DNA from: Bugula neritina
Taxonomy: Eukaryota > Bryozoa > Gymnolaemata > Cheilostomatida > Bugulidae
Assembly (NCBI GenBank): GCA_964035545.1
Contig: OZ037770.1
Span: forward strand, 363,001 to 427,000
Direction of reading: 5' to 3'
DNA length: 64,000 bases
In this document: piece by piece, positions 13,496 through 48,900 of the stretch
Layout of the letters: every line of letters starts with the position of its first letter
How positions within the stretch are numbered: position 1 is the stretch's first letter
The notes under the pieces: generated by a model
Seen by the model: only the letters and a program-made list of their open reading frames with translations
Told to the model about the DNA's origin: nothing
The model's database searches: none
Made by a program: the position numbers and the translations under genes

Positions 13496-14833
13496 TTAGT
13501 AGGTTGAGCGTTCATCTGAGGTGATGCCCGAGAGACCGCTGTAGGTACGACTCAGCTCAGACTTCTCGCTGATAACTGACATGACGTCTACAGCGTCGAA
13601 TACGCTGTGTCTGTCCCTCACCGAGCCCGACCTCGTTCTCTTCACCTCGCCTTTGATGTCTCCACTCCTGCCAAACGTCAAGTCCTCAGTGATGGTGATG
13701 AAGTCACCGTCTGAGTCTGAGTCATCGGAGTTGTGCAGACGGTCGCATACGGACTCCTTGCTTGCTGTCACAGAGTTAGACGAGATCGTCACGACTTGCT
13801 CCATCTGTTTGGGGCGTCTCAAAGTCGCCCATATTTTACGCCTTAAAGCTGGATTGAGGACGAGGAAGACAACCGGTAAAGCAATTAGACAGAGTTTGTG
13901 GAGTATAATACACGCCCTGAATATCACGTCTGGCAGGATCTCGTTACAGAAATAGTCTCCTGTCAGCTCATTGCTGCCGCACATCAGTACTAGTTGGAGA
14001 GAGGCAGCGAATGGTACGAGAGCAAGGAACAGCAGGCCAGTAATGACTACCGCCGACACTGTTCCTTGTTTCATCACTATTTTCCTCCGCATAGAGGTGT
14101 GTAGGTGACTGAGTCTGAGCTTGAGCCTGAATACTACTGCTACAGAGAACACGCTTGTCAGAGCTACAGAGAAGATGGTGAGGGCGGTGTAGACGTAAGC
14201 AAATGCATAACCATATAGTAGGTTCCTATTGCACCTGGTGTTGACGTCTGCACTGAATAGGTTGGTAGTCGGGAGGATGCTGACCACCAGCGCCATGGAG
14301 TAGGCAATGACCAGCAGACAAGCGAGTAAGTGCTTGGTCTGTCTGGTGGATAAATACTCCTTAGACTCCAGTCGTATAAGTCTCTCTACGCTCAGCATGG
14401 GTAGAGACAGCAGTATCGCTATCATGAAATAGTCTGGGGTCAGTGTCATAATCATACACAGTACGGGGTGTGTTATGCCCATCCTATCTTCCTTCATTAC
14501 CATGAGAGGAGCTCTCAGTCCGAGGTCACAGATTGCTACGAGACAAATGTTGGTGAGAATACTGATCATGACCAGACTCGCGTGTTTGGCGATTTGTTTC
14601 CTCAGAAGAAAGAGTAGCAACAGGAAGCCGCACGTCACCAACTGACCAATAGAGGAGACTATAACAGTGGCAACAGCCGGCACACTAAATGTCGTGTCAT
14701 TCAAAATGGCTGCAAACTCGTCATCCATTGTATCGGTTTGTAACTCGGTAGAGTTTAAACGGAAGAGCAGCTCACTTTCTGCCGGGGTGCTTCCTGTTGA
14801 CATCATGCCTTCATTATACAGGAAGTATGTCAT
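13496..14833 (-). CDS. Rhodopsin-like seven-transmembrane receptor
   Basis: A 445-residue single-exon frame with seven hydrophobic segments at about residues 52-77, 87-111, 124-148, 168-188, 207-235, 259-285 and 304-327. C126 near the start of helix 3 and C201 in the second extracellular loop could form the usual disulphide. Helix 3 ends in E150-R151-L, replacing Asp-Arg-Tyr. Helix 7 has N327-P328-A-L-R instead of NPxxY, followed by the basic juxtamembrane RRKIW. The N-terminal 50 residues include possible glycosylation sites (N27-S-T, N45-D-T). The long tail (residues 340-445) has acidic and Ser-rich clusters suitable for kinase and arrestin control. An in-frame TAG two codons upstream supports the start region; M10 or M11 are alternatives. 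Ligand and subfamily are not recognisable. Confidence 0.85.
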   Translation of the reverse strand: MTYFLYNEGMMSTGSTPAESELLFRLNSTELQTDTMDDEFAAILNDTTFSVPAVATVIVSSIGQLVTCGFLLLLFLLRKQIAKHASLVMISILTNICLVAICDLGLRAPLMVMKEDRMGITHPVLCMIMTLTPDYFMIAILLSLPMLSVERLIRLESKEYLSTRQTKHLLACLLVIAYSMALVVSILPTTNLFSADVNTRCNRNLLYGYAFAYVYTALTIFSVALTSVFSVAVVFRLKLRLSHLHTSMRRKIVMKQGTVSAVVITGLLFLALVPFAASLQLVLMCGSNELTGDYFCNEILPDVIFRACIILHKLCLIALPVVFLVLNPALRRKIWATLRRPKQMEQVVTISSNSVTASKESVCDRLHNSDDSDSDGDFITITEDLTFGRSGDIKGEVKRTRSGSVRDRHSVFDAVDVMSVISEKSELSRTYSGLSGITSDERSTY

Positions 14834-20078: not shown

Positions 20079-23037
20079 ATCTAGCTGGTGGTAGGGGCTC
20101 TCCCTGAGGCTACACTCTCTGAGGATGTAATTCTTACTATAATCACAGTATAGCCTCGTATCACGAATCCTGACCAAAACATTGTCAACTCTGAGATAAA
20201 ATCTCAACAATATGAAGTAACCAGACGCCATTGCTCTCTACAGTAACACACATTGTGGAATATAGACACGCATAATGATCTCTACATGGATATAGTATAT
20301 ACAGTACTACTCACTAGTATATACCGTATTACTCACTAGTATATACAGTATTACACACTAGTATATACAGTATTACTCACTAGTATATACAGTATTACTC
20401 ACTAGTATATACAGTATTACTCGCTAGTATATACAGTACTACTCACTAGATTATATACCGTATTACTCACTAGTATATACAGTATTACTCACTAGTATAT
20501 ACAGTATTACTCGCTAGTATATACAGTATTACTCACTAGTATATACAGTATTACTCACTAGATTATATACCGTATTACTCACTAGTATATATAGTATTAC
20601 TCGCTAGTATATACAGTATTACTCACTAGATTATATACCGTATTACTCACTAGTATATACAGTATTACTCACTAGTATATACAGTATTACTCACTAGATT
20701 ATATACCGTATTACTCACTAGTATATACAGTATTACTCGCTAGTATATACAGTATTACTCGCTAGTATATACAGTATTACACACTAGTATATACAGTATT
20801 ACTCGCTAGTATATACAGTATTACTCGCTAGTATATACAGTATTACACACTAGTATATACAGTATTACTCGCTAGTATATACAGTATTACTCGCTAGTAT
20901 ATACAGTATTACACACTAGTATATACAGTATTACTCACTAGATTATATACCGTATTACTCACTAGTATATGAAGCATTACATACTAGTATATACCGTATT
21001 ATTTACTAGTATATACAGTATTACTCACTAGTATATACAGTATTACTCACTAGTATATACCGTATTACTCACTAGTATATACCGTATTACTCACTAGTAT
21101 ATACAGTATTACTCGCTAGTATATACCGTATTACTCACTAGTATGTACAGTATTACTCACTAGTATGTACAGTATTACTCACTAGTATATACAGTATTAC
21201 TCACTACTATATACAGTATTACACACTAGTATAGACAGTATTACACACTAGTATATACAGTATTACACACTAGTATATACAATATTACTCACTAGTATAT
21301 ACAGTATTACTCGCTAGTATATACCGTATTACTCGCTAGTATATACCGTATTACTCACACACTTTAGACTGAGTATAGAAGCCCCATTATCAGCCAGCTC
21401 ATCTTCATAAAGTATCAAACTGGCGAAAAATAAAATCTTTTCTTCTATCTTCAATTTTTCATAATCAATTTTCTCAGTCGTTGGATGTACCTACAGATCA
21501 TATAATCTTCATTATATGGTAATATATATAAACTATAAAGTATAGTATGAGACAATATAATAAATATATATATTATACTGTAAGATATGTATCATAGCAT
21601 ATATTACACTATAAAATATAACATAACATAATTATTATGATAGTATAATGTATAATATCTACTGATGGATATTCAAAAACTGAAATACTTCTACTACTGA
21701 AGACGGCAGACAGTAAATGAAGTGCGCATTGCTAATTGTAGGGAAGAAAACTCCAAAGTATAAATAACCGGGTTGCTTAAACTGTTTTAGTTACTTTGCG
21801 AAACAGCCCCTAAAATGGAGACAACTCTAAAGTATGGCACATCACTACAGAGTGTACACACTGAGTGCTACTCACAGTGAAAGCTTTTTCTCCCTCATTT
21901 ATAAGAGTCCCGCTGTAGGTTGTGCTGAATGTCCAATCAAATGGCTTGAATACTTCATGAATGTGTTGACTCTCGTCTCTTGAAGTACACAAACAGATCA
22001 CGTTCTCACAAAGTTACTAACTCAACACAACTCAAATCAATGGTTGCCTGAACTTGGCACTTTTGTATTACATTACTCTACATGACTTAGTTAGCCATTA
22101 ACTTGACTTACCCAACTTGAAACTAGTTTTAGTATGAGTGCGGATGCTACTAGTACCACTGCTACTAGTACTACTAGTAGTAGGCTATTACCACTACTAG
22201 CACTATGAAAATAGACTCTCTAACTACTATTAGTAACACAATACAACATAATTTCTACCTGCTGGACTTCCATGCCTCAGCCACAGCAACTTTCATCAAG
22301 TCTTTCTCTGCATTCACCAACTTTAAGGCATCTAAAGCTGAAAACTCAACTCCAAACCCTTCAGTATGAGTCACTCTGAGTATATTCTGATCATAAGTCA
22401 TTTCTGGAGTCTGGGGGAGAGGTGAGAGAGTCTTCTCAAACCTAGATAGTCAAAAGTAAACCAACAAAAACACACACTACTGTGACTACAATGAAAATTC
22501 TAATTTTTATTATTACTATTTGAAATATTTAGACTAGTGAAACTAGTAAATTTTAAAGTAACTGCAACTACAGCTACTCATACTAATTACTATATAATTA
22601 TAATTACTATAAACAAAATATTGAATTTAATTTTAACTATTAGATATAAAACCACACATTTTGGTTATCATTGGCTATAAAATGAGATTAAATTATAAAT
22701 AACTCTAACTCTAAGCAACAAAACACAAACCTTGAAAAAACTAACAGTTTACTCATTACTGTTTAGACTTGATTTGAATACCGTAAAGTAAATTTGCCTA
22801 ATGAAAGCAAAAGAGTCACCTACTCTTAAGGTTAGAAATAATCTTATAAGTAATAAATATAAGTTATAATTTATAAGTTATAAGACTAAGTTATAAGTAA
22901 CAGTTATAATAATAGTATAACTTGAACTTAGTTACTTACGCTTCTCTGTCTGGTCCATCTGACTTTAAAATATGACTCTCTGTAATATTAAAGTCCCAAT
23001 TACCAAAACTAAACAAACCATGTTTTGCTGTAGCCAT
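20079..23037 (-). CDS. TIPRL: TIP41-like protein (TIPRL)
   Basis: TIPRL/Tip41 binds catalytic subunits of PP2A-type phosphatases and modulates TOR and stress signalling. Five exons are recognisable on the - strand: 22940-23037 (ATG, GLFSFGNWDFNITESHILKS), 22259-22410 (NILRVTHTEGFGVEFSALDA), 21876-21978 (EVFKPFDWTFSTTYSGTL), 21359-21490 (PTTEKIDYEKLK...FF...LYEDELADNG) and 20079-20237 (SGYFILLRFYLRVDNVLVRI, then the DTRLY motif). They follow the family in order. Exons 2 to 5 join in phase with GT-AG borders. Exon 1 ends with two bases left over while exon 2 starts in phase 0, so a small exon (the family's KLADEL region) is missing from my model. The last exon, about 45 residues of the family C-terminus, was not found. 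The gene lies head-to-head with gene A. The intron 20238-21358 is a satellite array. Confidence 0.9.
20285..21357. repeat. 22-bp satellite inside a TIPRL intron
   Basis: About 48 copies of a 22-bp unit, TATTACTCACTAG then TATATACAG, with ACTCGC, ACACAC and ATACCG variants. A longer ATTATATACCG form recurs at intervals. The array touches the donor of the exon 21359-21490: that donor (GTGAGTAATA on the - strand) is itself the repeat sequence. It is homologous in period and sequence to the array at 36275-37185. Confidence 0.95.
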
Positions 23038-25318: not shown

Positions 25319-28300
25319 ATGGAGGACTACACTAATATATTAAAGTTAGAAGAGCTGACCATAGAATACCAAAAGAAGGCTGAAACTAGTAGAAACTGGG
25401 TGCACCATCTACAGGTATAGTTTGTTGCTATTTTAGTTAAACAGTTGTTTAGCTATCATAAACATGATATGACATAACATGAAAGTTTATTAGAAGGGTT
25501 AAAACTAACTACAGAGGAGCATGTATGTTGTTGAAGTCGAAGACCAGCTGAAGACAAATTAGACATGTGTATTTTTCTAATGAGTTTATAGGAAGTACAT
25601 TTTATTATTCTGAATAACGACTGCATATTGCTCAGCTTGAAAAAACTGCATCATCCTTGATCTGTAGGCTCATGGACTAGCTAACAGATGTCTGGCTCTA
25701 GAGTTCAGTGAGGAGAGACAGAGGAGAGTCTACCAGATAGAAGACTGTTGGTACGAACGAAGACATCCACTCAGCTATGAGGAACATCAGGAATTGACAA
25801 AGAAACATCTCAAGCTACTGGAGGACTACAGAACTGAGACAACAACTGACTTCAGCTCTATTGACACAAGTAACTTGAAACTTGATAACTATCCTTCAGC
25901 TAATCAGCTCACTGAGTTTAGTAATTCTGTATTTGAATTAAGTCAAAAGTGCAGTGATAACTTTATATCAACATGTAGTAAGTTTATACAGTCCAGTGTT
26001 GATACTTTGAGTACATCAGGTTTAAATATTCCCTGTTCATTTGCTGTGATTGGTCTTGGTTCTGTTGCTCGTGGTACAGCCACTCCATATTCTGACCTAG
26101 AGTATGCCTTTGTCGTTGAGTCAGACTCTCATATTGACTACTTTACTAAACTAGCAGTTGATAGCTACTTTAGAATTGGTAATATGGGAGAGTCACCATT
26201 GAAGGGTTTTAATATTCCTGAACTAGACAAATCATACACAGATAGTGCTACTGTAGGGTTCCGTATTGATGGAATATCCACAAATGCTGGAAATATTCCC
26301 ACAGGGAAAGGAGATGGTAGCAGGGGTTTGATATTGACTGTTGAACAGTTGACTGAACTATACTCTGAGACACTGACTACACCAGCTGGTGATATAGCAG
26401 ATATAGCTGATCTGTTATCTTCTATTGTCATGATATGTGCATATGAAAATGGTGAAATTCTGTTTGACAACACTCTTGAAAACTTTCAAACTATTTTAGC
26501 AGAAAATGTAAACAATTCAGTTGTGATAAACAAACGACTGAAATTATTAAAAACAGATGCTGAATCTTACAATTTTCTCCCAACCTTCAAATCCTTTGGA
26601 CCTCCTGACAACACAAAACTCAAACTTAAAGGTGATATTTTTCGATACCCAACACTGTTAGTTGACCACCTGAGACTGTTGATAGCTTTAGATAAAATGA
26701 CTCCTTGGTCTATAATATGCCACTTGAAAGAGCAGAACTTTGTGACTGACAAACAACTGTTTAGACTAAACCTAATAACAGCTATGGCCATATACATCAG
26801 AACAACTGCATACTTACAATCAGGAACTCAAAAAGATCATTTCTCTTTATATCCTCCCACTGAATGTCACACCAAAGGAATTTATCATTTATCTAGAGAC
26901 ATGTTTGTTCTATTAGCATTTATGATTGTTCCTGTGAAGAAATTTGTTAAAAGAAACTTGAATAATATTAATTGTGAAAGTGAATGGATAGGCTCTGCTG
27001 TTTTGAGAAGACTAGTGAACCAAATTGGTTTAGATAACCCAGGTTTCACATTGAAAATGGAGGTGGAATTTTTTTGTGGAGATTTTGAGCAATCCATTCA
27101 AACTGTTAAAGCAAATTGTGGTGCTGATATATTTGATAAAAATCCTAAAGATTTTGGTGAAACAATCAACAGTTCATATTATTCAGACTCTTTAGTTGCA
27201 TCTCAGGATTTTGAGCATGGAGACAATAATGTGTTAACCGCTCAACTCAAATACATTGAAATGGCTGCATATCTATTGTACTCCTCTAGAAAGTATGATA
27301 GTTGTCTTAAGTATTTTACTTGGTTAGCAGAAAACTGTGTAAAGTCTGCATCTGATAGGTTGAAATGGAAAGTGTTAGCTGCTGACTCCGCCAATCAGCT
27401 TCACAATTACCATGACGTCTTCTCTTTGATTGGTGAAGTTTTGTGTACCATTAGATCAAAGTACAAACTAAAGAATAATCAAACTCTGTACAGATTTGTG
27501 AGAGACCAGGCTAAACACGATCAGCATTCAGCTGAAGACAGAGAGTTGTTTGAAATTGTTGCACAAGCTTTAAGAGTGACTAGCAAAGCTTATGAGAATG
27601 TAAAACATTATGTGCAAGCTGAAGAGTTGGCAAATGCAGCACTCTCACTTTTTGATAGTCTGTATTCCCAAAGGTCAGGGCAGCAATTTGGCAGTCATTA
27701 TGTAGATTTGATAGTTTCCCTTGCTTTGCTACAGTCAGAAAGAGGTGAACATGATGAAGGTGTTGAATACTTGACTCATCATTTAGATAAGTTAAAAGAA
27801 GTTCACACTGACCAGACTAACCACCCAGACATTGCCCTTCTACTGAGTGGTTTAGGTCAACTTTATGAAAAAGCTGAAAATTATGACATCTCCTTAGATT
27901 TCTATAACAGAGCTTTAGCTATGACAAAAAGTTTGTACAGTTTGGATCATGTTGATGTTGCTCAGTGCTATCGGAGAGTTGCAGCTCTACAGGCTGAAAT
28001 AGGTGATTATAATTTATCTTGCAGCAACTATCAAATTGTAGAAAGGTTGTTTGATAAGTTGAAGGTTAATGAGCATGAGAAAGCTGGTCTGTTAGTAGAA
28101 ATTGGTCTTCTTCATTGCTGTAAGAGTGAATATGACTCAGCTCTGTCATATCTTGATTTAGCTCTCAGTATGATAGAGTCTAAAGTAGAAACCATCCACA
28201 TAGATATGGCAGATATAAACTCTGCATATGGTAGAGTTTATAGTAAAATGGGACAAACAGAACTTGCATTAGAATATTACACAAAGTCTCTAGAAATAAC

Positions 28301-31300
28301 CAAAGAAGTTCTGAGTAGTATTGATGGTATTCCATTGTTATCTCAACTCTATGGTGAGATGGGAAAGTTGTCTGTCGAACTGAGCGCAGAGGCTATGATG
28401 TTGAATATTGAGAGAGCTAGTAGAGAGGTGAACAGTGTTAGTCCTGATGTAGCTTCTTGTTATATGAGAGTTGGTAATGTCTATAGAGATATGTGTCTGT
28501 ATGAGCAGTCTTTGCTGTACCTCAATGAGGCATGTGAAATGTTCAGGGCTGTCTATGGCAGTGATGCAGTGCATGCAGATATTGCTAGTAGTTATAACAA
28601 TATTGGTCTTGTGTATAGTGACATGGGTGAATATAGCAAAGCACTAGAGTACTATAGGAAGAGTCTTGAGATGAGACAAGCTGTGTATGGCAGTGATGCA
28701 GTACATGCAGACATTGCTAGCAGTTATAACAATATTGGTAATGTGTATAGTAACATGGGTGAATATAGCAAGGCACTAGAGTACTATAGGAAGAGTCTAG
28801 AGATGCTGTTAGCTGTCTATGGTAATGATGCAGTACATGCAGACATTGCTGGTAGTTATACCAATATTGGTATTGTGTATGGTAACATGGGTGAATATAG
28901 CAAGGCACTAGAGTACTATAGGAAGGGTCTAGAGATGAAACAAGCTGTCTATGGCAGTGATGCAGTGCATGCAGACATTGCTAATAGTTATAACAATATT
29001 GGTGCTGTGTATAGTAACATGGGTGAATATAGCAAGGCACTAGAGTACTATAGGAAGGGTCTAGAGATGCAGCTAGCTGTCTATGGCAGTAAGGCTACAC
29101 ATGCACACATTGCTAGTAGTTATAACAGTATTGGTAGTGTGTATAGTAACATGGGTGAATATAGCAAGGCAATAGAGTACTATAGGAAGGGTCTAGAGAT
29201 GAGACAAGCTGTCTATGGCAGTGATGCAGTGCATGCAGACATTGCTAGTAGTTATAACAATATTGGTATTGTGTATAGTGACATGGGTGAATATAGCAAG
29301 GCAATAGAGTACTATAGGAAGGGTCTAGAGATGAGACAAGCTGTCTATGGCAGTGATGCAGTGCATGCAGACATTGCTAGTAGTTATAACAATATTGGTA
29401 GTGTGTATAGTGACATGGGTGAATATAGCAAGGCACTAGAGTACTATAGGAAGGGTCTAGAAATGAGACAAGCTGTCTATGGCAGTGATGCAGTGCATGC
29501 ACACATAGCTAGTAGTTATAACAGTATTGGTAATGTGTATATTAACATGGGTGAACATTGCAAGGCACTAGAGTACTATAGGAAGGGTCTAGAGATGAGA
29601 CAAGCTGTCTATGGCAGTGAGGCTACACATGCAAACACTGCTGGTAGTTATAACAATATTGGTATTGTGTATAGTAACATGGGTGAATATAGCAAGGCAC
29701 TAGAGTACTATATGAGAGGTCTAGAGATGGAGCTAGCTGTCTATGGCAGTGATGCAGTACATGCAGACATTGCTAATAGTTATAACAATATTGGTATTGT
29801 GTATAGTGACATGGGTGAATATAGCAAGGCACTAGAGTACTATAGGAAGAGTCTTGAGATGAGACAAGCTGTGTATGGCAGTGATGCAGTACATGCAGAC
29901 ATTGCTAGCAGTTATAACAATATTGGTATTGTGTATAATCACATGGGTGAATATAGCAAGGCACTAGAGTACTATAGGAAGGGTCTAGAGATGAGACAAG
30001 CTGTCTATGGCAGTGATGCAGTGCATGCAGATATTGCTAGCAGTTATAACAATATTGGTAATGTGTATAGTAACATGGGTGAATATAGCAAGGCACTAGA
30101 GTACTATAGGAAGAGTCTTGAGATGAGACAAGCTGTCTATGGCAGTGATGCAGTGCATGCACACATTGCTTGTAGTTATAACAATATTGGTGGTGTGTAT
30201 TGTAACATGGGTAAATATAGCAAGGCACTAGAGTACCATAGGAAGAGTCTAGAGATGAGACAAGCTGTCTATGGCAGTGATGCAGTACATGCAGACATTG
30301 CTAGTAGTTATACCAGTATTGGTAGTGTGAATAGTAAGATGGGTGAATATAGCAAGGCACTAGAGTACTATGAGAAGGGTCTAGAGATGAGACAAGCTGC
30401 CTATGGCAGTGATGCAGTGCATGCAGATATTGCTAGTTGTTATACCAATATTGGTAGTGTGTATAGTTACATGGGTGAATATAGCAAGGCACTAGGGTAC
30501 CATAGGAAGAGTCTAGAGATGGTGCTAGCTGTCTATGGCAGTGATGCAGCACATGCCCACATTGCTGGTAGTTATAACAATATTGGTAATGTGTATAGTG
30601 ACATGGGTGAATATAGCAAGGCACTAGAGTACTATAGGAAGGGCCTAGAGATGAGACAAGCTGTCTATGGCAGTGATGGAGTGCATGCACACATTGCTGG
30701 TAGTTATACCAATATTGGTGGTGTGTATAGTAACATGGGTGAATATAGCAAGGCACTAGAGTACCATAGGAAGAGTCTAGAGATGCAGCTAGCTGTCTAT
30801 GGCAGTGATGCAGTGCATGCAGACATTGCTAGTAGTTATAACAATATTGGTGGTGTGTATAGTAACATGGGTGAATATAGCAAGGCACTAGAGTACCATA
30901 GGAAGGGTCTAGAGATGCAGCTAGCTGTCTATGGCAGTGATGCAGTGCATGCAGACATTGCTAGTAGTTATAACAATATTGGTTTTGTGTATAGTAACAT
31001 GGGTGAATATAGCAAGGCACTAGAGTACTATAGGAAGGGTCTAGAGATGAGACAAGACGTCTATGGCAGTGATGCAGTGCATGCACACATTGCTGGTAGT
31101 TATAACAATATTGGTAATGTGTATAGTGACATGGGTGAATATAGCAGGGCACTAGAGTACTATAGGAAGGGTCTAGAGATGAAACAAGCTGTCTATGGCA
31201 GTGATGCAGTGCATGCAGACGTTTCTAGTAGTTATTACAATATTGGTGTTGTGTATAGTAACATTGGAGAATATAGCAAGGCACTAGAGTACTATAGGAA

Positions 31301-32471
31301 GGGTCTAGAGATGCAGTTAGCTGTCTATGGCAGTGATGCAGTGCATGCCCACATTGCTGGTGGTTATAACAATATTGGTGGTGTGTATAGTAACATGGGT
31401 GAATATAGCAAGGCACTAGAGTACTATAGGAAGAGTCTAGAGATGCAGCTAGCTGTCTATGGCAGTGATGCAGTGCATTCAGACCTTGCTAGTAGTTATA
31501 ACAATATTGGTATTGTGTATAAATACATGGGTGAATACAGCAAGGCACTAGAGTACTATGGGAAGAGTCTAGAGATGAGACAAGCTGTCTATGACAGTGA
31601 TGCAGTGCATGCACACATTGCTAGTAGTTATAACAACATAGCCTCAGTTCATCACAAACTCTCAGACTACACCTCATCCCTCCATTACTATAGCAAAAGC
31701 ATAGACATGCATAAAGCAGTCTATGGTGAAGGAACCAATCATAATAACATTGCTGAAAGTTATAGAGGTATTGCTGATGTGTACACAGATACAGGTGAAT
31801 ATACAAAGTCACTACATTATCTCACCTTGTCTCTAGACATGACTAAAGCTATACATGGTGACAATACCACTCACATAGATATAGCAGACACTTACCATAA
31901 ACTGGGTAGACTGTATCATAATGCAGGTCAATATACACACTCAGTACACTGCTATAACATGGCCCTTGTAGAGAGAGATAGGTGTAATACTGCTCATCTC
32001 CCTCTATATACAGCTGTGTTAGTCAGTCTCTCTCAGACTGTAATCTCATCATCAGACTACAAACACGCTAAGGGTCTCCTACTACTCGCTCTCAAACATT
32101 CACCTACTGACTACTGTAAGGATACTCGGGCTAATATCTGTCAACTCTTAGGACAGTGTTGTCTCCACTTACATCAGTACAGAAAGTGTTGGAAATATTT
32201 ATATTCAGCTCTCTGTTACTATGAGTCACTTCCTTCCTCCAACTGGAAGATGAAATCTCTAGCTCAGGTTCATTTGTACATCTCCCACTTGCTCTTACAT
32301 CTGGGTCATGTTTCACAGGCTATAGAACACTCTGAGTTAGCTTTTGATTTTGTAGAAAGTGTTTTAGTTGACAGAGATAACATAACTCCTGAATTTACTA
32401 GACTGTATACAGACATTACACACATGATTCTTGGTTTATATTCAACTCTTACTCTGTATATAGATATATAG
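25319..32471 (+). CDS. Gene A: nucleotidyltransferase-TPR giant repeat protein
   Basis: Two exons, 25319-25414 and 25668-32471 (GT-AG, phase 0), encode 2299 residues. Residues about 140-260 carry GLGSVARGTATPYSDLEY, matching the Pol-beta nucleotidyltransferase signature G-S-x(10)-D-x-E (S164, D175, E177). It resembles the DUF294 / GlnD-type uridylyltransferase N-terminal domain. A helical segment follows to about 520. TPR motifs run from about 560 almost to the end. Residues 993-2004 are 23 near-identical 44-residue TPRs (NIG.VY..MGEYSKALEYY type, as in kinesin light chain); more diverged TPRs lie on both sides. No signal peptide or membrane segment is seen, so it is probably cytosolic. The nucleotide donor and target are unknown. 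An ATTAAA signal lies at 32946. Gene B is a tandem paralogue. Confidence 0.93.
28548..31583 (+). repeat. Coding 132-bp repeat, 23 copies (gene A)
   Basis: Exactly 23 in-frame units of 132 bp, with no indels between units. Each encodes one 44-residue TPR starting A-V-Y-G-S-D. Most units differ at only a few bases; the changes cluster at TPR positions 2, 5, 9, 12-13 and at the last two residues of the unit. Some units carry a KATHAH or EATHAN variant. A degenerate 24th unit begins at 31584. Confidence 0.97.
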
Positions 32472-36141: not shown

Positions 36142-36274
36142 CTACGAAATAGAAATTAGAATAAAAAACATCAATATTTTACTCATGTTTGGAACTTCAA
36201 AAATATAAATATATGACAGTATAAGAGGACTAAAAGCTGCTGTAGTAATAAAATGAGAAATTGCTAGACTAGTA

Positions 36275-37185
36275 TTACATTATACTCTATACAGTATTAC
36301 ACTATACTCTATACTCTATACAGTATTACACTCTACTCTATACAGTACTACACTATACCCTATACAGTATTACACTATACTATATACAGTATTACACCAT
36401 ACTCTATACAGTATTACACTATACTCTATACAGTATTACACTATACTCTATACAGTATTACACTATACTCAATACAGTATTACACTATACTCAATACAGT
36501 ATTACACTATACTCTATACAGTGTTACACTATACTCTATACAGTGTTACACTATACTCTATACAGTATTACACTATACTCTATACAGTATTACACTATAC
36601 TCTATACAGTGTTACACTATACTCTATACAGTATTACACTATTTTCTATACAGTATTACACTATACTCTATACAGTATTACACTATACTCTATACAGTAT
36701 TACACTATACTCTATACAGTATTACACTATACTCTATACAGTATTACACTTTACTCTATACAGTATTACACTATACTCTATACAGTATTACACTATACTC
36801 TATACAGTATTACACTATACTCTATACAGTATTACACTATACTCTATACAGTATTACACTATACTCTATACAGTATTACACTATACTCTATACAGTATTA
36901 CACTCTACTCTATACAGCATGACACTATACACTATACAGTATTACACTATACTCTATACAGTATTACACTATACTCTATACAGTATTACACTATACTCTA
37001 TACAGTATTACACTATACTCTATATAGTATTACACTATACACTATACAGTATTACACTATACTCTATACAGTATTACACTATACTCTATACAGTATTACA
37101 CTATACTCTATATAGTATTACACTCTACTCTATACAGTATTACACTATACTCTATATAGTATTACACTCTACTCTATACAGTATA
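36275..37185. repeat. 22-bp satellite, second array
   Basis: About 41 copies of TATTACACTATACTC then TATACAG (22 bp). It shares TATTAC and TATACAG at the same spacing with the array in the TIPRL intron, so the two descend from one ancestral array and were homogenised separately. Long Tyr/Leu/Ile frames across it are artefacts of a 22-bp period. Confidence 0.95.
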
Positions 37186-40936: not shown

Positions 40937-43900
40937 ATGGAGGACTACAAAGACATATTAAAGTTAGACGAACTGACCATAAAATACCAAAAAATGGCGG
41001 AGTCTAGTAGAAACTGGGTGCACCATCTGCAGGTAGCAATTACTACTATTTGATTCAAATTAATGGTGTACCTGTCATAAACATGATATGACATAACATA
41101 AAATGTTCATAGAAGGTTTAAAACTAAATACAGAAAAGCATGTCTGTTGTTGAAGTTGAAGACTGCAGCTGAAGACAAAGACATATGTATTTTTCTAATG
41201 AGTTTATAGGAAGTATACATTTTATTATTCTGAATGAGGACTGCATTTTGCTCAGCTTGAAAAAACTGTATTTTCTTTTTTATCTATAGGCTCATGGACT
41301 AGCTAACAGATGTCTGGCTCTAGAGTTTAGTGAAGAGAGACAGAGGAGAGTCTACCAGATAGAAGACTGTTGGTATGGAGGAAGACATCCAATCAGCTAT
41401 GAGGAACATCAGAAATTGACAAAGAAACATCTCAAGTTGCTGGAGGATTTTAGAGACGAGACAACAACTGACTTCAGCTCTCTTGACACAAGTAACTTGA
41501 AACTTGATAACTATCCTTCAGCTAGTCAGCTCACTGAGTTTAGTAATTCTGTATTTGAATTAAGTCAAAAGTGCAGTGATAACTTTATATCAACATGTAG
41601 TAAGTTTATACAGTCCAGTGTTGATACTTTGAGTACATCAGGTCTAAATATTCCCTGTTCCTTTGCTGTGATTGGTCTTGGTTCTGTTGCTCGTGGTACA
41701 GCCACTCCATATTCTGACCTAGAGTATGCCTTTGTCGTTGAGTCAGACTCTCATATTGACTACTTTACTAAACTAGCAGTTGATAGCTACTTTAGAATTG
41801 GTAATATGGGGGAATCACCATTGAAGAGTTTTAATATTCCTGAAATAGACAAATCATATGCAGATAGTGCTACTGTAGGCTTCCGTATTGATGGAATATC
41901 CAAAAATGCTGGAAACATTCCAACCGGGAAAGGAGATAGTAGCAGGGGTTTGATATTGACTGTAGAACAATTGACTGAACTATACTCTGAGACACTGACT
42001 TTACCAGCTGGTGATATAGCAGATATAGCTGATCTGTTATCTTCTATTGTCATGATCTGTGCATATGAAAATGGTAAAATGCTGTTTGACAAGACTCTTG
42101 AAAACTTTCAAACTATTTTAGCAGAAAATGTGAACAATTCAGTTGTGATAAACAAACGACTGAAATTATTAAAAACAGATGCTGAATCTTACAATTTTCT
42201 CCCAACATTCAAATCCTTTGGACCTCCTGACAATACAAAACTCAAAGTTAAAGGTGATATTTTTCGATACCCAACACTGTTAGTTGACCACCTGAGACTG
42301 TTGATAGCTTTAGATAAAATGACTCCTTGGTCTATAACATGCCACTTGAAAGAGCAGAACTATGTGACTGACAAACAACTGTTTAGACTAAACCTGATAA
42401 CAGCTCTGGCCATATACATCAGAACAACTGCATACCTACAATCAAGAACTCAAAAAGATCATTTCTCTTTATATCCTCCCACTGAATGCCACACCAAAGG
42501 AATTTATCATTTATCTAGAAACATGTTTGTTCTATTAGCATTTCTGATTGTTCCTGTGAAGAAATTTGTTAAAAGAAACTTGGATAATTTTAATTGTGAA
42601 AGTGAATGGATAGGCTCTGCTGTTTTGAGAAGACTAGTGAACCAAGTTGGTTTAGATAACCCAGGTTTCACATTGAAAATGGAGGTTGAATTTTTTTGTG
42701 GAGATTTTGAGCAATCCATTCAAACTGCTAAAGCAAATTGTGGTGCTGACATATTTGATAAAAGTCCTAAAGACTTTAGTGAAACTATCCGTAGTTCAAG
42801 TGATTCCAATTCCTCAGTTACATCTGAATATTGTAAACAGGAAGTTAATAATGTTTCTGCTGCTTCATCCAAATACATCGAAATGGCTGCATATCTATTG
42901 TACTCCTCTAGAAAGTATGATAGCTGTCTGAAGTATTTCACTTAGTTAACAGAAAACTGTGCAGACTCTGCATCTGATAGGTTAAAATGGAAAGTGTTAG
43001 CAGCTGACTCAGCCAATCAGATTCACAATTATTATGAGGTCTTCTCTTTGATTGGTGAAGTTTTGTATACCATCAGATCAAAGTACAAATTGAAGATTAG
43101 TCAAACTCTGTACAGATTTGTTAGAGATCAGGCTAAACACACTCAGCATTCAGCTGAAGACAGAGAGCTGTTTGAAATTGTTGCACAAGCTTTTAGAGTG
43201 ACTAGCAAAGCCTACAAGAATGTGAAGCATTATGTGCAAACTGAAGAGTTGGCAAATGCAGCACTCTCACTTTTTGACAGTCTGTATTCCCAAAGATCTG
43301 GGGAACAATTTGGCAGTCATTATGTAGATTTGATAGTTTCCCTTGCGTTGTTACAGTCAGAAAGAGGTGAACATGATAAAGGTGTTGAATATTTGACTCA
43401 TCATTTAGATAAGTTGAGAGAAATTCACACTGACCAGACTAACCACCCAGACATTGCCCTTCTATTGAGTGGTTTAGGTCAACTTCATGAAAAAGCTGAG
43501 AATTATGACATCTCCTTAGATTTTTACAACAGAGCTTTAGCTATGACAAAAAGTTTGTACAGTTCAAATCATGTTGATATTGCTCAATGTTATCAGAAAA
43601 TTGCAGCTGTGCATGCAAAAATGGGTGATTATAGTTCATCTTTCAGCAACTATCAAAGTGTAGAAAAGTTGTTTGAGAGTTTGAAGATTAGTGAGCATGA
43701 GAAAGCTTTTCTGTTGGTGGAAATTGGCCTTCTTCATTGTTGTAAGAGTGAATATGACTCAGCTCTGTCATATCTTGATTCAGCTCTCAGTATGATAGAG
43801 TCTAAAGTAGAGACCACCCACATAGATATGGCAGATATAAACTCTGCATATGGTAGAGTTTATAGTGAAATGGGGCAGACAGAACTTGCATTAGAATATC

Positions 43901-45981
43901 ACACAAAGTCTTTAGTGACAACCGTAAAAGTTCTGAGTAGTATTGATGGTATTCCATTGTTATCTCAACTCCATGGTGAGATGGGAAAGTTGTCTGTGAA
44001 ACTGAGTGCAGAGGCTATGATGTTGAATATTGAGAGAGCTAGTAGAGAGGTGAACAGTGTTAGTCCTGGTGTAGCCTCTTGTTACATGAGAGTTGGTAAT
44101 GTCTATGATGATATGTGTCTATATGAGCAGTCTTTGGTGTATCTCAATAAGGCATGTGAGATGTTCAAGGCTGTCTATGGCAGTGATGCAGTGCATGCAC
44201 ACATTGCTATTGGTTATAACAATATTGGTAATGTGTATAGTAAGATGGGTGAATATAGCAAGGCACTAGAGTACTATAGGAAGGGTCTAGAGATGCAGCT
44301 AGCTGTCTATGGCAGTGATGCAGTGCATGCCCACATTGCTAGTAGTTATAACAATATTGGTAATGTGTATAGTAACATGGGTGAATATAGCAAGGCACTA
44401 GAGTACTATGAGAAGGGTCTAGAGATAGAGCTAGCTGTCTATGGCAGTGATGCAGTGCATGCACACATTGCTAGTAGTTATAACAATATTGGTGTTGTGT
44501 ATAGTAACATGGGTGAATATAGCAAGGCACTAGAGTACTATAGGAAGGGTCTAGAGATGAGACAAGCTGTCTATGGCAGTGATGCAGTGCATGCAGCCAT
44601 TGCTAGTTATTATACCAATATTGGTAGTGTGTATAGTGACATGGGTGAACATAGCAAGGCACTAGAGTACTATAACAAGGGTTTAGAGATGCAGTTAGCT
44701 GTCTATGGCAGTGATGCAGTGCATGCCCACATTGCTAGTAGTTATAACAATATTGGTAATTCGTATAGTGACATGGGTGAATATAGCAAGGCACTAGAGT
44801 ACTATGAGAAGGGTCTAGAGATAGAGCTAGCTGTCTATGGCAGTGATGCAGTGCATGCCCACATTGCTAGTAGTTATAACAATATTGGTAATGTGTATAG
44901 TAAAATGGGTGAATATAGCAAGGCACTAGAGTACTATAGGAGGGGTCTAGAGATGAGACAAGCTGTCTATGGCAGTGATGCAGTGCATGCAGACATTGCT
45001 AATAGTTATACCAATATTGGTGTTGTGTATAGTAACATGGGTGAATATAGCAAGGCACTAGAGTACTATAGAAAGGGTCTAGAGATGCAGCTAGCTGTCT
45101 ATGGCAGTGATGCAGTGCATGCACACATCGCTAATAGTTATAACAACTTAGCCTCAGTTCATCACAAACTCTCAGCCTACACCTCATCCCTCCACTACTA
45201 TACCAAATGTATAGAGATGTTTAAAGCAGTCTATGGTGAAGGAACCAACCATAATCACATTGCTTTTTGTTATAGAGGTATTGCTGATGTGTACACAGAT
45301 ACAGGTGAATATATAAAGTCACTACATTATCTCACCTTGTCTCTAGACATGACTAAAGCTATACATGGTGACAATACCACTCACATATATCTAGCAGACA
45401 CTTACCATAAACTGGGTAGACTGTATCATAACACAGGTCAATATACACACTCAGTACACTGCTATAACATGGCCCTGGTACAGAGAGATAGGTGTAATAC
45501 TGCTCATCTCCCTCTATATACAGCTGTGTTAGTCAGTCTCTCTCAGACTCTAATCTCATCATCAGTCTACAAACACGCTAAGGGTCTCCTACTACTCGCT
45601 CTCAAACATTCACCTACTGACTACTGTAAGGATACTCAGGCTAATATCTGTCAACTCTTAGGACAGTGTTGTCTCCACTTACATCAGTACAGGAAGTGTT
45701 GGAAATATTTATATTCAGCTCTCTGTTACTATGAGTCACTTCCTTCCTCCAACTTGAAGATGAAATCTCTAGCTCAGGTTCATTTGTACATCTCCTACTT
45801 GCTCTTACATCTGGGTCATGTTTCACTGGCTGTAGAACACTCTGAGTTAGCTTTAGTTCTTGTAGAAAGTGTTTTAGTTGACAGAGATAACATAACTCTT
45901 GAACTCACTAGACTGTATACAGACATTACACACATGACTCTTGGTTTATATTCAACTCTTACTCTGTATACAGATATTTAG
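40937..45981 (+). pseudogene. Gene B: nucleotidyltransferase-TPR paralogue with one in-frame TAG
   Basis: Same two-exon structure as gene A: 40937-41032 and 41290-45981, phase 0, with introns of 257 and 253 bp. The 1595 codons align with gene A over the first 992 codons with no net length change and keep the nucleotidyltransferase motif GLGSVARGTATPYSDLEY. Only 7 of the 44-residue TPRs are present (residues 993-1300), then the same C-terminal TPRs. Codon 584 (42943-42945) is TAG where gene A has TGG (27321-27323). The frame is otherwise open to the TAG-type end at 45979-45981, with no frameshift. It could be a young pseudogene, a null allele, a truncated 583-residue nucleotidyltransferase, a read-through gene or a base error. 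AATAAA at 46455 follows. Confidence 0.9.
44170..45093 (+). repeat. Coding 132-bp repeat, 7 copies (gene B)
   Basis: Seven in-frame 132-bp units homologous to the gene A array and starting at the same residue number (993). Units 2 and 5 share the EKGLEIEL ending, which suggests duplication within the array. A degenerate eighth unit follows, as in gene A. Confidence 0.97.
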
Positions 45982-48900
45982 ACTTACTGTACTTCTAGTA
46001 TTTAGTATTCTATATTCTCTGTTAAACAGTCTGTGAGTTTAAATGACTTTTCAGCTACATTTCTCTTGCTTTCTTCTTTATAGTATCAACATTTTATGCA
46101 TTTTTAGTCGTTTTGTTGAGTTTGTGTTAGAAAATGCTGTATATAATTAAATATAATAATCAAAGTCATGTTTTCTAATAGTTATCACTCCTTTGCTTTT
46201 TATTCTTATACTTATTATATATTACTTGTATATATTAAGTTTGTATTGGTGTAGATTTCTTTTCATAACAAAGCCATTCTACAGCCCATGTGTCATTTTC
46301 ATTTTCTTCTCTTTTCTTTTACTTCCTGAAGCTATGGTAACAATTCCTGTATTTTATTGTGTATATAATTGTATGTTGTTCGTTCCTATTGATTACCTTA
46401 TTATGGCTTTACAGTGTAAATAATGCTGTTTGTACTTTTTGCTGAATTTCTGTAAATAAATTTATTAAATATAATATTTCTCAAGAACATACAAACTGCA
46501 TATAGATGCCTAAAAGTTACTTAACACATTTCATTTTTTCGACATGTTGGCTGTATAACCTACTTTCTTCAAAATGACGAAGAAACCTTAGTGTTTGTAT
46601 TTTAGGATTCAAATTAAAAATTGGTTGGCATATTAGAGTCAAGTAGTATTTATCTGTTCACATAATATAGCTTGGCGATAAACTCACTGAATACAGAGGA
46701 GAGGTTAGATTTTGTGTTATATAATAGTTGCCTTTATATCAATTTTTGAGTGACTTGACTGCATATATTTAGTTCACTGCATGTGTACAACAGCTAAACC
46801 TCATCCCTGAATAAGATTACTTTATAGCGCATGTTAGCAGTAAAGAATACATGCATTATATATACAGCAAAGCCTTGGGTTAATCATGCATTACCTAGCT
46901 AAGCAACAAGCTAATTTCAACGGAAGTTATAGTTTCATAAAATTGGACTCTAATTTAACATAAAAACCCTTATTTTAGCCACACTCTTTGTACAAAGGGT
47001 ACCCTAAGATAAATAGCTGTCTGTATAGCAGTTTATTGTGAAACTTGCTGTATTTTTAGACTTACCATATGTGTTTTGCTAAGTCTGTAGTTATGTTGAA
47101 GACAACAGATAAAAGCAAATCATTTAAATGAAGTCAACTTTCATATACTGGGTATAATCTCTGCAGTTATCACAATGACCTGTTGCTAGAGGTAGTTGGT
47201 GATTGATTTTGAAAAAAAAATCAATATTGGTTAAAGATAGCATTTGTAAACTTTCTATAGCAGTTGCTCTACTTTGCTGCATAATTAAGCCATAATTTCA
47301 GTATATATTTTCCTAGAATGTTGTTTAGAGACATAAAAAAACTGCCTATGCACAACATACTTTGCATCTGTTTAGTATCTCGTAATTAGATATAAAAAAA
47401 TCAAAGCCAATTATAAGGCAAAAGACCATAATACTGTACTATCATTGGATAGTTCTTCATCAATAAACAGGTAGTCGCCAGTGGTGGATATGAACCCCTC
47501 CTAGATGTTTCTCGTACTTCTTCCTCAAAAAACATTTTCATTAAGCCAAAAAGAAATAACAATACACCTTTTTAGTAGACACTTTTTAATTTCTGACTGA
47601 TATTTCACCTTATTTCCAATTATAATTAACTTTTAACCGGCACTTTTCTTTGTAGTAATTCCTACCCTTTAGACTGTGTACTTTGAAATGAGTCTGTTTT
47701 ACTCGTTACATAAAGTATAGTTGCACTGGCTACAGGTTGACACAAAAGCAAGCCTATCTTGATAAAATCATGCGCAAATGTAGAAACTACCGAGGAGTTT
47801 GTTCCTCATAATTAGAAATTGACAAATTATTTTTAATCCGTTTAAAAGCATCTGGTTAGGGAAGCATATGCCGTGTTCAATTTGTTATTCTAGCATTAAC
47901 AATAACAGAATGCAATAATTATAAGTTTATGAAAGTAATTTGTTTTCTTTCTAATTACAAATATAATATTTTAGTATATATTGTAAATTTATAAGGCTTG
48001 CATTAGGAATAACGCAGCTAAAACATCATTTTCCTTAAAGTCTTAAAAATATATAAGTATAACATAATACACTATGCCAATAAACTTATTAAAGTACCAA
48101 GCAAGCTTAGCTAGTTTAAGAAAAATTACACTAGGTAAATTCCCATTATTTATAGAATGCTTGCTGATATTAGCTTTTGATGTAATTAAAGTAAATTATT
48201 ATTTATCTTTCTAGCTAAGGATTTCTTGCCGTAAGTTTTGCTTTTATGCATGGAGAAATGTCGTAACAAACCAGTTAAATTTTTATAGCACATAAAAATG
48301 TAATCTATAAGTCGAAGATATTTAAACTTAGCCATTAACTCATTTTAATTAGCAATGTAGCCTAAATCTAATACAATACAAAATATATACCAGTATATAT
48401 AATATATTTTTACCATGCTGTTAATTACAGTATTTGTAAAACAAATTTTATGCTCATTAATTAAATGCAACAAATATTTATAAAATACTAATAATGTTGA
48501 ATAAATAAATTCAATAATTCTTTTTCTATTTAAATGGCTGCATAATTTCTTGCAAGGTTGTATAAAGGAGTTGTGGCCCACAACTTATTATGTGTTCAAT
48601 TGCCACATATGTCTTAGGAAGAAGAAAACTCCCCAAAAATTCTTGGTTTGAAAATTCTAGTATAATTAAAATCACTTAATATATGTCTTTGAAATGCATT
48701 TTGCCACTCTGCAAAATTGCAGGAACAAATATTGCATGAAGTAATAAATGATTTATGAAGTAATTAACAAACCAATGTAAAAACTGTTGTTGTATATAGA
48801 ACACAACATATTGATTTTCTTCAATCTCCACATCAAATCTATATATTCAATTATATCTAACCAATGCTAATAAACTAAACATGCATGCATACAAATATTT

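Follow-up and report, generated by a model that had tools for sequence, protein, structure and literature searches.

Repeat arrays that diverge fastest at predicted groove positions in a nucleotidyltransferase-TPR gene family of the bryozoan Bugula neritina

Why would near-identical repeats, kept in a single open frame, differ from one another mainly at the residues through which proteins of their kind are expected to touch ligands? This question is raised by a stretch of 64,000 nucleotides on chromosome 6 of Bugula neritina (contig C6, positions 363001 to 427000; hereafter the window, whose own numbering is used throughout). There, gene A encodes an array of 23 near-identical 44-residue tetratricopeptide repeat (TPR) units (28548..31583, forward strand) behind a domain of nucleotidyltransferase (NTase) type. 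A preliminary description of the window had proposed diversifying selection on the binding surface of the array. Our results indicate that gene A probably belongs to a diversifying, receptor-like NTase-TPR family which behaves like the repeat arrays of fungal NOD-like receptor (NLR) and HET genes and which would most likely serve in innate immunity or allorecognition.

The repeat units and their variable positions

The units of gene A lie head to tail, 132 bp each, in one open frame, with about 90% matches between copies (Tandem Repeats Finder). Their TPR profile matches exceed the curated cut-off and keep the consensus register. A HMMER alignment to an engineered consensus TPR sets A-S-S-Y-N-N-I-G on A-E-A-W-Y-N-L-G (positions 1 to 8), showing that the TPR numbering of the preliminary description was right; it also places residue -1 of the 44-mer at canonical TPR position 33.

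For comparison, units were cut with a hidden Markov model from gene A and from the related genes described below, and those with less than 70% identity to the consensus of their array were dropped. The main set, to which all counts refer unless stated otherwise, comprises 22 arrays with 217 units; L027, L031 and L033 were left out for having too few consecutive units, and L022, L025, L034 and L035 for having fewer than five units at 70% identity to their own consensus. Mean pairwise amino-acid identity is 0.82 in gene A and 0.68 to 0.89 across the set, and the amino acid is fixed at 13 of the 44 positions across the units of gene A.

The differences in gene A are unevenly spread. Counting the units, out of 23, that carry a minority residue, position 9 leads with 17 units and eight residues (L, N, I, A, S, G, F, V), followed by 13 and 31 with 10 units each, 2 and 27 with 9 (the latter S/G), -1 (D/H/N) and 32 with 8, 5 and 12 with 5, and 24 with 4; the remaining positions reach at most 3. 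These counts confirm the concentration at 2, 5, 9, 12, 13 and 31/32 reported earlier, although that list was incomplete, as -1 (canonical 33), 27 and 24 vary too. Clustering at the five positions then named as ligand contacts (2, 5, 9, 12 and 13) goes beyond chance: they rank 1, 3, 4, 6 and 7 of 44 for nonsynonymous diversity, ranks matched by 12 of 200,000 random five-position sets. In TPRs generally the positions of the concave face vary most, and the published hypervariable set consists of 2, 5, 9, 12, 13, 33 and 34 (PMC1261162). Together with the sequence register, these published positions map the variable residues to the predicted concave face. Taken as sets of seven contact residues, all 23 units of gene A are distinct and the 217 units form 199 combinations, a natural library of putative groove variants on a single scaffold.

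Array-wide tests of selection

We compared the nonsynonymous diversity of each codon with the synonymous diversity of its whole array, a test for which no tree is needed because exchange between units should affect both diversities alike. This per-codon comparison, which the preliminary description had proposed as a check, agreed with its expectation: the ratio at the five named positions exceeds 1 in 22 of 22 arrays (1.21 to 7.12) and is higher than at the other 39 codons in every one of them. In gene A the values are 2.52 and 0.60, with position 9 at 4.82. Bootstrapped over arrays, the ratio is 4.0 at position 9 (3.0 to 5.4), 3.8 at 31, 2.6 at 2, 2.4 at 12, 2.3 at both -1 and 13, 2.2 at 5 and 1.7 at 24 (1.1 to 2.3), and position 9 lies above the synonymous diversity in 21 of the 22 arrays. 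Outside these eight fast positions, the 36 other codons span 0.04 to 1.37, and the five that reach 1 (-11, -2, 25, 27 and 32) have intervals that include 1. When the identity filter is lifted (26 arrays, 307 units), ratios shrink, to 1.89 at position 9; the five-position ratio is then above 1 in 24 of 26 arrays and above the rest in all 26. Grouped by place, it amounts to 2.38 and 4.61 in two stretches of contig C6, 4.00 on C2, 1.21 on C4 and 3.02 on C5 and C7.

Proteins from other records were compared at the protein level where at least four units reached 60% identity (18 arrays). Thirteen of them are of Bugula type, a class that we assigned ourselves and that consists of one B. neritina protein and the metagenome entries nearest the family genes; here the most variable positions are 31, 9, 12, 2, 5, -1 and, level with 24, position 13. 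Four of the five arrays outside the Bugula type are likewise more diverse at the five positions than at 37 background positions.

CpG avoidance

The preliminary description had also read the constant third base of codon 9 as a sign of selection. That base is indeed T in all 23 units of the gene A array and in 212 of 217 units overall. Yet the following base is G in 211 of 217 units, and NNY codons end in C in 1.3% of cases before G (n = 1956) versus 32 to 55% before other bases. Because the next base is nearly always G and C-ending NNY codons are rare there, the T is explained by CpG avoidance, and this part of the earlier argument does not hold. The NNT codons had also suggested a mechanism resembling a diversity-generating retroelement, a candidate that we dropped on finding that many nearby adenines never vary.

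The avoidance is pronounced throughout the locus. The observed-to-expected CpG ratio is 0.08 in the exon of gene A and 0.02 in its array, compared with 0.39 for the window. Family exons are CpG-depleted as well (0.05 to 0.49, median 0.16; flanks, median 0.40), the exon being lower than its flanks in 26 of 29 cases, and they are rich in TpG and CpA (window positions 26000-32000 and 42000-46000; loci L009 to L035). Such a loss of CpG with an excess of TpG and CpA suggests germline methylation of the family genes. A frame in the window resembling a G-protein-coupled receptor (13496-14833) has a ratio of 0.76.

Where CpG is avoided, synonymous changes from T to C in front of a G go missing, which inflates the array-wide ratios. 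We therefore repeated the test counting solely changes that create no CpG, which raised the pooled synonymous diversity from 0.115 to 0.152. The five-position ratio stays above 1 in 22 of 22 arrays (1.04 to 6.13, median 2.80), whereas at the 37 codons that remain when the five positions, -1 and 31 are set aside it exceeds 1 in none of the 22 (median 0.48); gene A gives 2.07 and 0.43. Intervals lie above 1 at 31, 9, 12, 2, 13, -1 and 5, marginally so at 24 (1.03 to 2.16), and not at 32. Six of the seven firm positions belong to the published concave hypervariable set (chance P of about 7e-6); position 31 does not. Fast divergence at predicted groove positions on a constrained framework (2, 5, 9, 12, 13 and canonical 33, plus 31, at about two to four times the synonymous level) is thus what the arrays present.

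Own-codon tests and the origin of the pattern

A second test used the synonymous changes of each codon as its own yardstick, with nonsynonymous (N) and synonymous (S) changes counted by parsimony on FastTree trees. N/S is 120/0 at position 9, 76.7/3.3 at 12, 72.5/6.5 at 13, 75/11 at 2, 64.7/13.3 at 5, 73/16 at -1 and 94.2/26.8 at 31. Pooled over the five positions it is 409/34, with 60 to 81 synonymous changes expected (CpG-aware P of 6e-5 to 1e-10). With the transition bias set from 1 to 3, CpG-aware P lies between 3e-6 and 1.3e-4 at position 9 and runs from 0.011 to 8e-5 at 12, from 0.089 to 1.6e-4 at 13 and from 0.086 to 0.005 at 2; position 27 is nominal (0.012 to 0.037). Position 9 is clear and position 12 nominal in all settings tried, which no other of the seven positions achieves. 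Our first probability for position 9, 1.4e-14, had ignored CpG avoidance and is superseded by the range given here. The earlier proposal of diversifying selection at the contact positions is therefore supported in part: by the array-wide ratio and, codon by codon, clearly at 9, nominally at 12 and, given a transition bias of 2 to 3, at 13 and 2, but not at 5.

Could ordinary repeat turnover produce the same picture? New units would drift under relaxed constraint, with groove positions tolerating change, and neither diversifying selection nor a recognition role would be involved. Repeats within a single protein generally diverge fast from one another (Persi et al. 2016, PMC5120217), the concave positions of TPRs are the most variable ones in any case (PMC1261162), and synonymous change is raised along with nonsynonymous change at 5, -1 and 31. 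However, relaxation drives the ratio toward 1, and the CpG-aware intervals at seven positions exclude that value; position 9 has a count of 120/0 (P as above), ratios of 2 to 4 at contact positions are not readily predicted by the general divergence of new repeats, and the other 36 codons remain at 0.04 to 1.37, the intervals of those reaching 1 including 1. We consider turnover an unlikely explanation, though one to be taken seriously.

A local mutational process rather than selection (CpG deamination, repeat-directed hypermutation or a diversity-generating system) can be judged from the bases themselves. Depletion of CpG in the family exons (medians of 0.16 and 0.40 for exons and flanks), with the past methylation that it suggests, speaks for such a process, as does the possible supply of mutations by repeat-induced point mutation (RIP) in Podospora arrays (PMC1805685). 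The third base, too, is more diverse in the seven contact codons (0.197) than elsewhere (0.078). Bases 1 and 2 are raised more, however (0.37 versus 0.05 to 0.07). When NNY codons with the same first two bases are compared, T/C differences are just 1.8-fold more frequent at contact codons (0.058 versus 0.033), and many invariant bases of like kind lie between the contact codons. The unvarying third base of codon 9 is no argument either way here, because CpG avoidance explains it. Mutation without selection appears very improbable as the source of the pattern.

Diversifying selection on the putative groove is, in our best reading, the account that fits these sequence patterns most closely. Part of the speed at 5, -1 and 31, where synonymous change is raised too, may nevertheless stem from linkage, from codon changes in several steps, from mutation or, at 31-32, from two old codon sets.

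Probable exchange between units, and array length

In gene A, mean linkage between sites (r2) is 0.30 at 1-2 bp and 0.16 at 3-9 bp and drops to 0.04-0.05 beyond 10 bp, where independence would give 0.045. From this pattern we infer that units exchange sequence within arrays. The nearest relative of a unit lies within its own gene for 91 of 217 units versus 5% expected, and identical units occur as five pairs within genes and none between genes. The longest DNA match is 91-96% identical in 16 of 17 paralog pairs. Locus L032 contains one three-unit block twice, and its neighbor L033, 95.9% identical over 4.5 kb, has a shorter array with a mosaic-like first unit.

These comparisons bear on whether gene A might instead encode a scaffold or an adaptor for transport, comparable to kinesin light chains or nephrocystin, with units specialized for fixed partners and differences that are old and conserved. 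Leaving designed TPRs aside, the solved structure that matches the array best is kinesin light chain 1, followed by TONSOKU, kinesin light chain 2 and GPSM2, and the TPR_NPHP3 profile matches gene A. Against such a role, none of the 17 paralog pairs has a unit register at P<0.05 (lowest 0.054; the arrays are small and give little power). Array length, at a unit identity of at least 45%, varies from 25 units in gene A down to 3 in L031 and L033, and the family counts no fewer than 29 loci, of which 16 are gathered in two stretches of contig C6. An adaptor with fixed partners thus seems rather improbable.

The NTase-type domain

The N-terminal domain of gene A (25794..27173, with residues counted from 25794) is weakly similar to DUF294 and PII-uridylyltransferases. 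Its PF03445 score is 21.4 bits for the domain alone and 19.9 for the whole protein, at a cut-off of 21; all 16 family domains scanned match this profile at E up to 1 (best 1.2e-7). The SidM match falls under the Pfam cut-off, and matches to solved structures are weak and local (best E 0.0022). PADLOC and NCBIfam point weakly to an NTase and otherwise to TPRs in general, with every NCBIfam match below cut-off. The domain contains G89-S90...D101-x-E103, which we take to be the NTase active-site motif, and D159, a putative third acidic active-site residue. All five residues are invariant in the 47 chosen rows of an alignment (A2) of 45 of 61 proteins with genes A and B.

No NACHT, NB-ARC, CHAT, death-fold or TIR domain, and no HD or ACT domain, is present in the Pfam table of gene A, in which 25 of 26 families are listed. 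At E up to 1, the 16 members scanned match eight families, none of which is a Mab-21-type profile. Upstream of gene A we saw no Death, CARD, TIR or NACHT partner, the short first exon there being a predicted one.

The ratio of nonsynonymous to synonymous substitution rates (dN/dS) of the NTase domain is 0.28 among eight genes of the first C6 stretch and 0.26 among five genes of the second, values that indicate purifying selection in the genes compared. In the closing region it is 0.61 (seven genes, pair range 0.36 to 1.84), and 0.55 for one pair. The low value in the NTase domain beside a fast putative groove suggests a layout in which a variable sensor is joined to an output domain that stays constant.

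The gene family in Bugula neritina and relatives

The genome assembly that we searched holds 215,847,546 bases in 295 contigs; the published assembly, tzBugNeri2.1, spans 216.00 Mb in 320 scaffolds and represents one haplotype, contigs of the second having been deposited (PMC11480708). From 739 candidates, 150 of which were scored, we took 27 further long TPR frames; the choice covered long open frames on contigs C2 and C4 to C8 and passed over short matches on C1, C3, C7 (6061k) and small contigs. With genes A and B this gives at least 29 family loci: 11 at 0.39-1.0 Mb and 5 at 2.9-3.15 Mb of C6, and 13 over C2, C4, C5, C7 and C8. In tblastn searches with the 460 N-terminal residues of gene A, all 27 fetched loci match and 26 cover the NTase core; the match of L009 is limited to residues 307-460, and those of L027 and L029 are spread over two frames. 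For most of their extent, the closing units and C-terminal region show 83-93% identity in L009, L010, L012, L015, L016, L017, L020 and L021. Small contigs (C39, C78, C210 and C282) hold TPR matches in short, often stop-broken frames, perhaps from a bacterial cobiont.

Named relatives come from B. neritina itself, from Watersipora subatra and, distantly, from an octocoral, a lancelet and Funneliformis fungi. The paralog L030 is 81% identical to a B. neritina protein. Among the fetched loci there is no ortholog with an array from other Bugula-type records, and the closest cross-record pair, P0038 and L034 (90%), involves a protein without an array (P0038). The W. subatra NTase-TPR proteins P0034 and P0037 are labelled "tetratricopeptide repeat protein 28-like", a label that hides the NTase domain.

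Layout of the locus

All features are on the forward strand. The main coding exon of gene A (25668..32471) lies directly behind a TAG acceptor, and its frame is open to the stop. The TTG at 25794 is merely the first table-11 start in that frame. Gene A likely has a short upstream first exon, because W. subatra proteins (e.g., P0026) carry about 30 extra residues ahead of the matching AHG... segment. Between the NTase domain and the array lies a middle region of divergent TPR-like units (27174..28547); three divergent closing units (31584..31979) and the C-terminal region (31980..32471), part of the closing region with the dN/dS of 0.61, follow the array. Minisatellites of 22 bp flank the gene at 20293-21358 and 36271-37184 (48 and 41 copies, 91-93% matches).

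Gene B lies 9 kb downstream and has the same plan, with seven near-identical units (44170..45093). Its NTase part (41290..42945) ends at a single in-frame stop (42943-42945), past which the frame continues unchanged through the array and C-terminal region (42946..45981). The stop, which falls between the NTase and TPR parts, could mark a pseudogene, a null allele or the assembly.

Interpretation

Several results weigh against a diversifying receptor family. The 22 arrays are paralogs and hence not independent, and gene B carries an in-frame stop. Uncorrected for CpG, three of the 22 arrays (L019, L020 and gene B) have a ratio above 1 at the other 39 codons. The signal of L024 is weak (1.21, and just 1.10 at position 9), with the single array that represents C4 giving the same two values; position 9 in L014 is 0.99, not above synonymous diversity; and in the unfiltered set two divergent members do not reach 1, L025 (0.93) and L035 (0.96). 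By the own-codon test, 5, -1 and 31 are not significant, while 13 and 2 need a transition bias of 2 to 3. The seven contact codons also have a raised synonymous diversity by count, 0.263 versus 0.096 elsewhere, to which linkage, multi-step codon changes or local mutation contribute. Outside the Bugula type, P0006 of Watersipora, one of the five arrays, shows the reverse of the expected difference. Those five arrays lead at 2, 19, 16, 12 and 9, and also 18, so that their match to the contact positions is poorer. As to exchange, linkage in four other arrays falls to 0.06-0.13 (0.06-0.09 expected), at or somewhat above independence, and recurrent mutation likewise lowers linkage. The NTase assignment, finally, is weak by profile.

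An immune or allorecognition role for the family is suggested by the sequence pattern together with its parallels in known systems. The putative groove would bind variable ligands, such as molecules of pathogens, symbionts or conspecifics. Point mutation, together with gene conversion or unequal exchange among the units, could generate the diversity, and the groove would be under positive selection, a scheme already put forward for fungal het-d/het-e and TPR NLRs. The output would be nucleotidyl transfer, which the N-terminal domain might begin once a ligand is bound. At its fullest, the proposal is of a bryozoan germline recognition repertoire made up of dozens of NTase-TPR receptors, whose grooves would be combined from shuffled units under diversifying selection. 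We hold this as a tenable possibility with somewhat less than an even chance, a judgment that covers jointly nucleotide transfer as output and a role in colony allorecognition or in symbiont or pathogen recognition.

Historecognition is said to be well documented in sessile colonial animals, including bryozoans (PMC12018476), and B. neritina hosts a bacterial symbiont that makes protective bryostatins (PMC11480708). Our limited literature search found no molecular allorecognition candidate in bryozoans. If the proposal is true, B. neritina offers testable loci that diversify like fungal nonself genes, through repeated units, exchange between them and selection on the binding face.

Comparison with known systems

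No earlier account of such an NTase-TPR family in animals was found in a literature search that was limited and mostly without subscription journals. Among NTases, the GlnD, DUF294, MntA and SidM (DrrA) proteins share the GS...DxE motif and local profile similarity with gene A, but the family matches are weak and local. HD and ACT domains after the NTase define GlnD; gene A shows neither in its table of 25 of 26 families. The cGAS-like receptors of animals provide a precedent for enzymes of the nucleotide-signal type in innate immunity (PMC9980059), yet they are of Mab-21 type, a profile that the 16 Bugula members scanned do not match at E up to 1.

On the side of the repeats, the coral TPR-CHAT genes resemble the Bugula family as a large tandem TPR expansion of highly variable length in a sessile animal (PMC12314368). 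They have a CHAT domain in place of the NTase, and selection on contact residues is not mentioned in the portions of that account consulted for the coral genes (PMC12314368).

The closest parallels are fungal. NLRs with conserved TPR, ANK or WD repeats have, like the Bugula genes, near-identical, superstructure-forming repeats of variable length, with selection on the concave face in TPRs, for which kinesin light chain 2 served as the structural model (Dyrka et al. 2014, PMC4986451). The criterion used there for highly conserved repeats is units more than 85% alike over at least 100 residues (PMC4986451); by our own measure, the mean pairwise identity is 0.82 in gene A and 0.68 to 0.89 over the 22 arrays. 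Fungal NLRs contain NACHT or NB-ARC, whereas gene A shows neither among the 25 of 26 families listed and has an NTase instead. Polymorphism in repeat number is known between fungal strains (PMC4986451), whereas the Bugula arrays were compared as paralogs of one haplotype.

In the NWD family of Podospora, which includes het-d and het-e, a supply of mutations acts together with repeat exchange and selection (Paoletti et al. 2007, PMC1805685). Here too, a gene family appears to combine repeat exchange with selection on the residues of an interaction surface. The Podospora repeats form WD propellers, have a known incompatibility function and are exchanged between loci, whereas no identical unit is shared across Bugula genes. 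Should the proposed role be correct, the bryozoan repertoire would be an animal counterpart, by convergence, of the fungal het-d/het-e genes, unlike the animal repertoires described so far.

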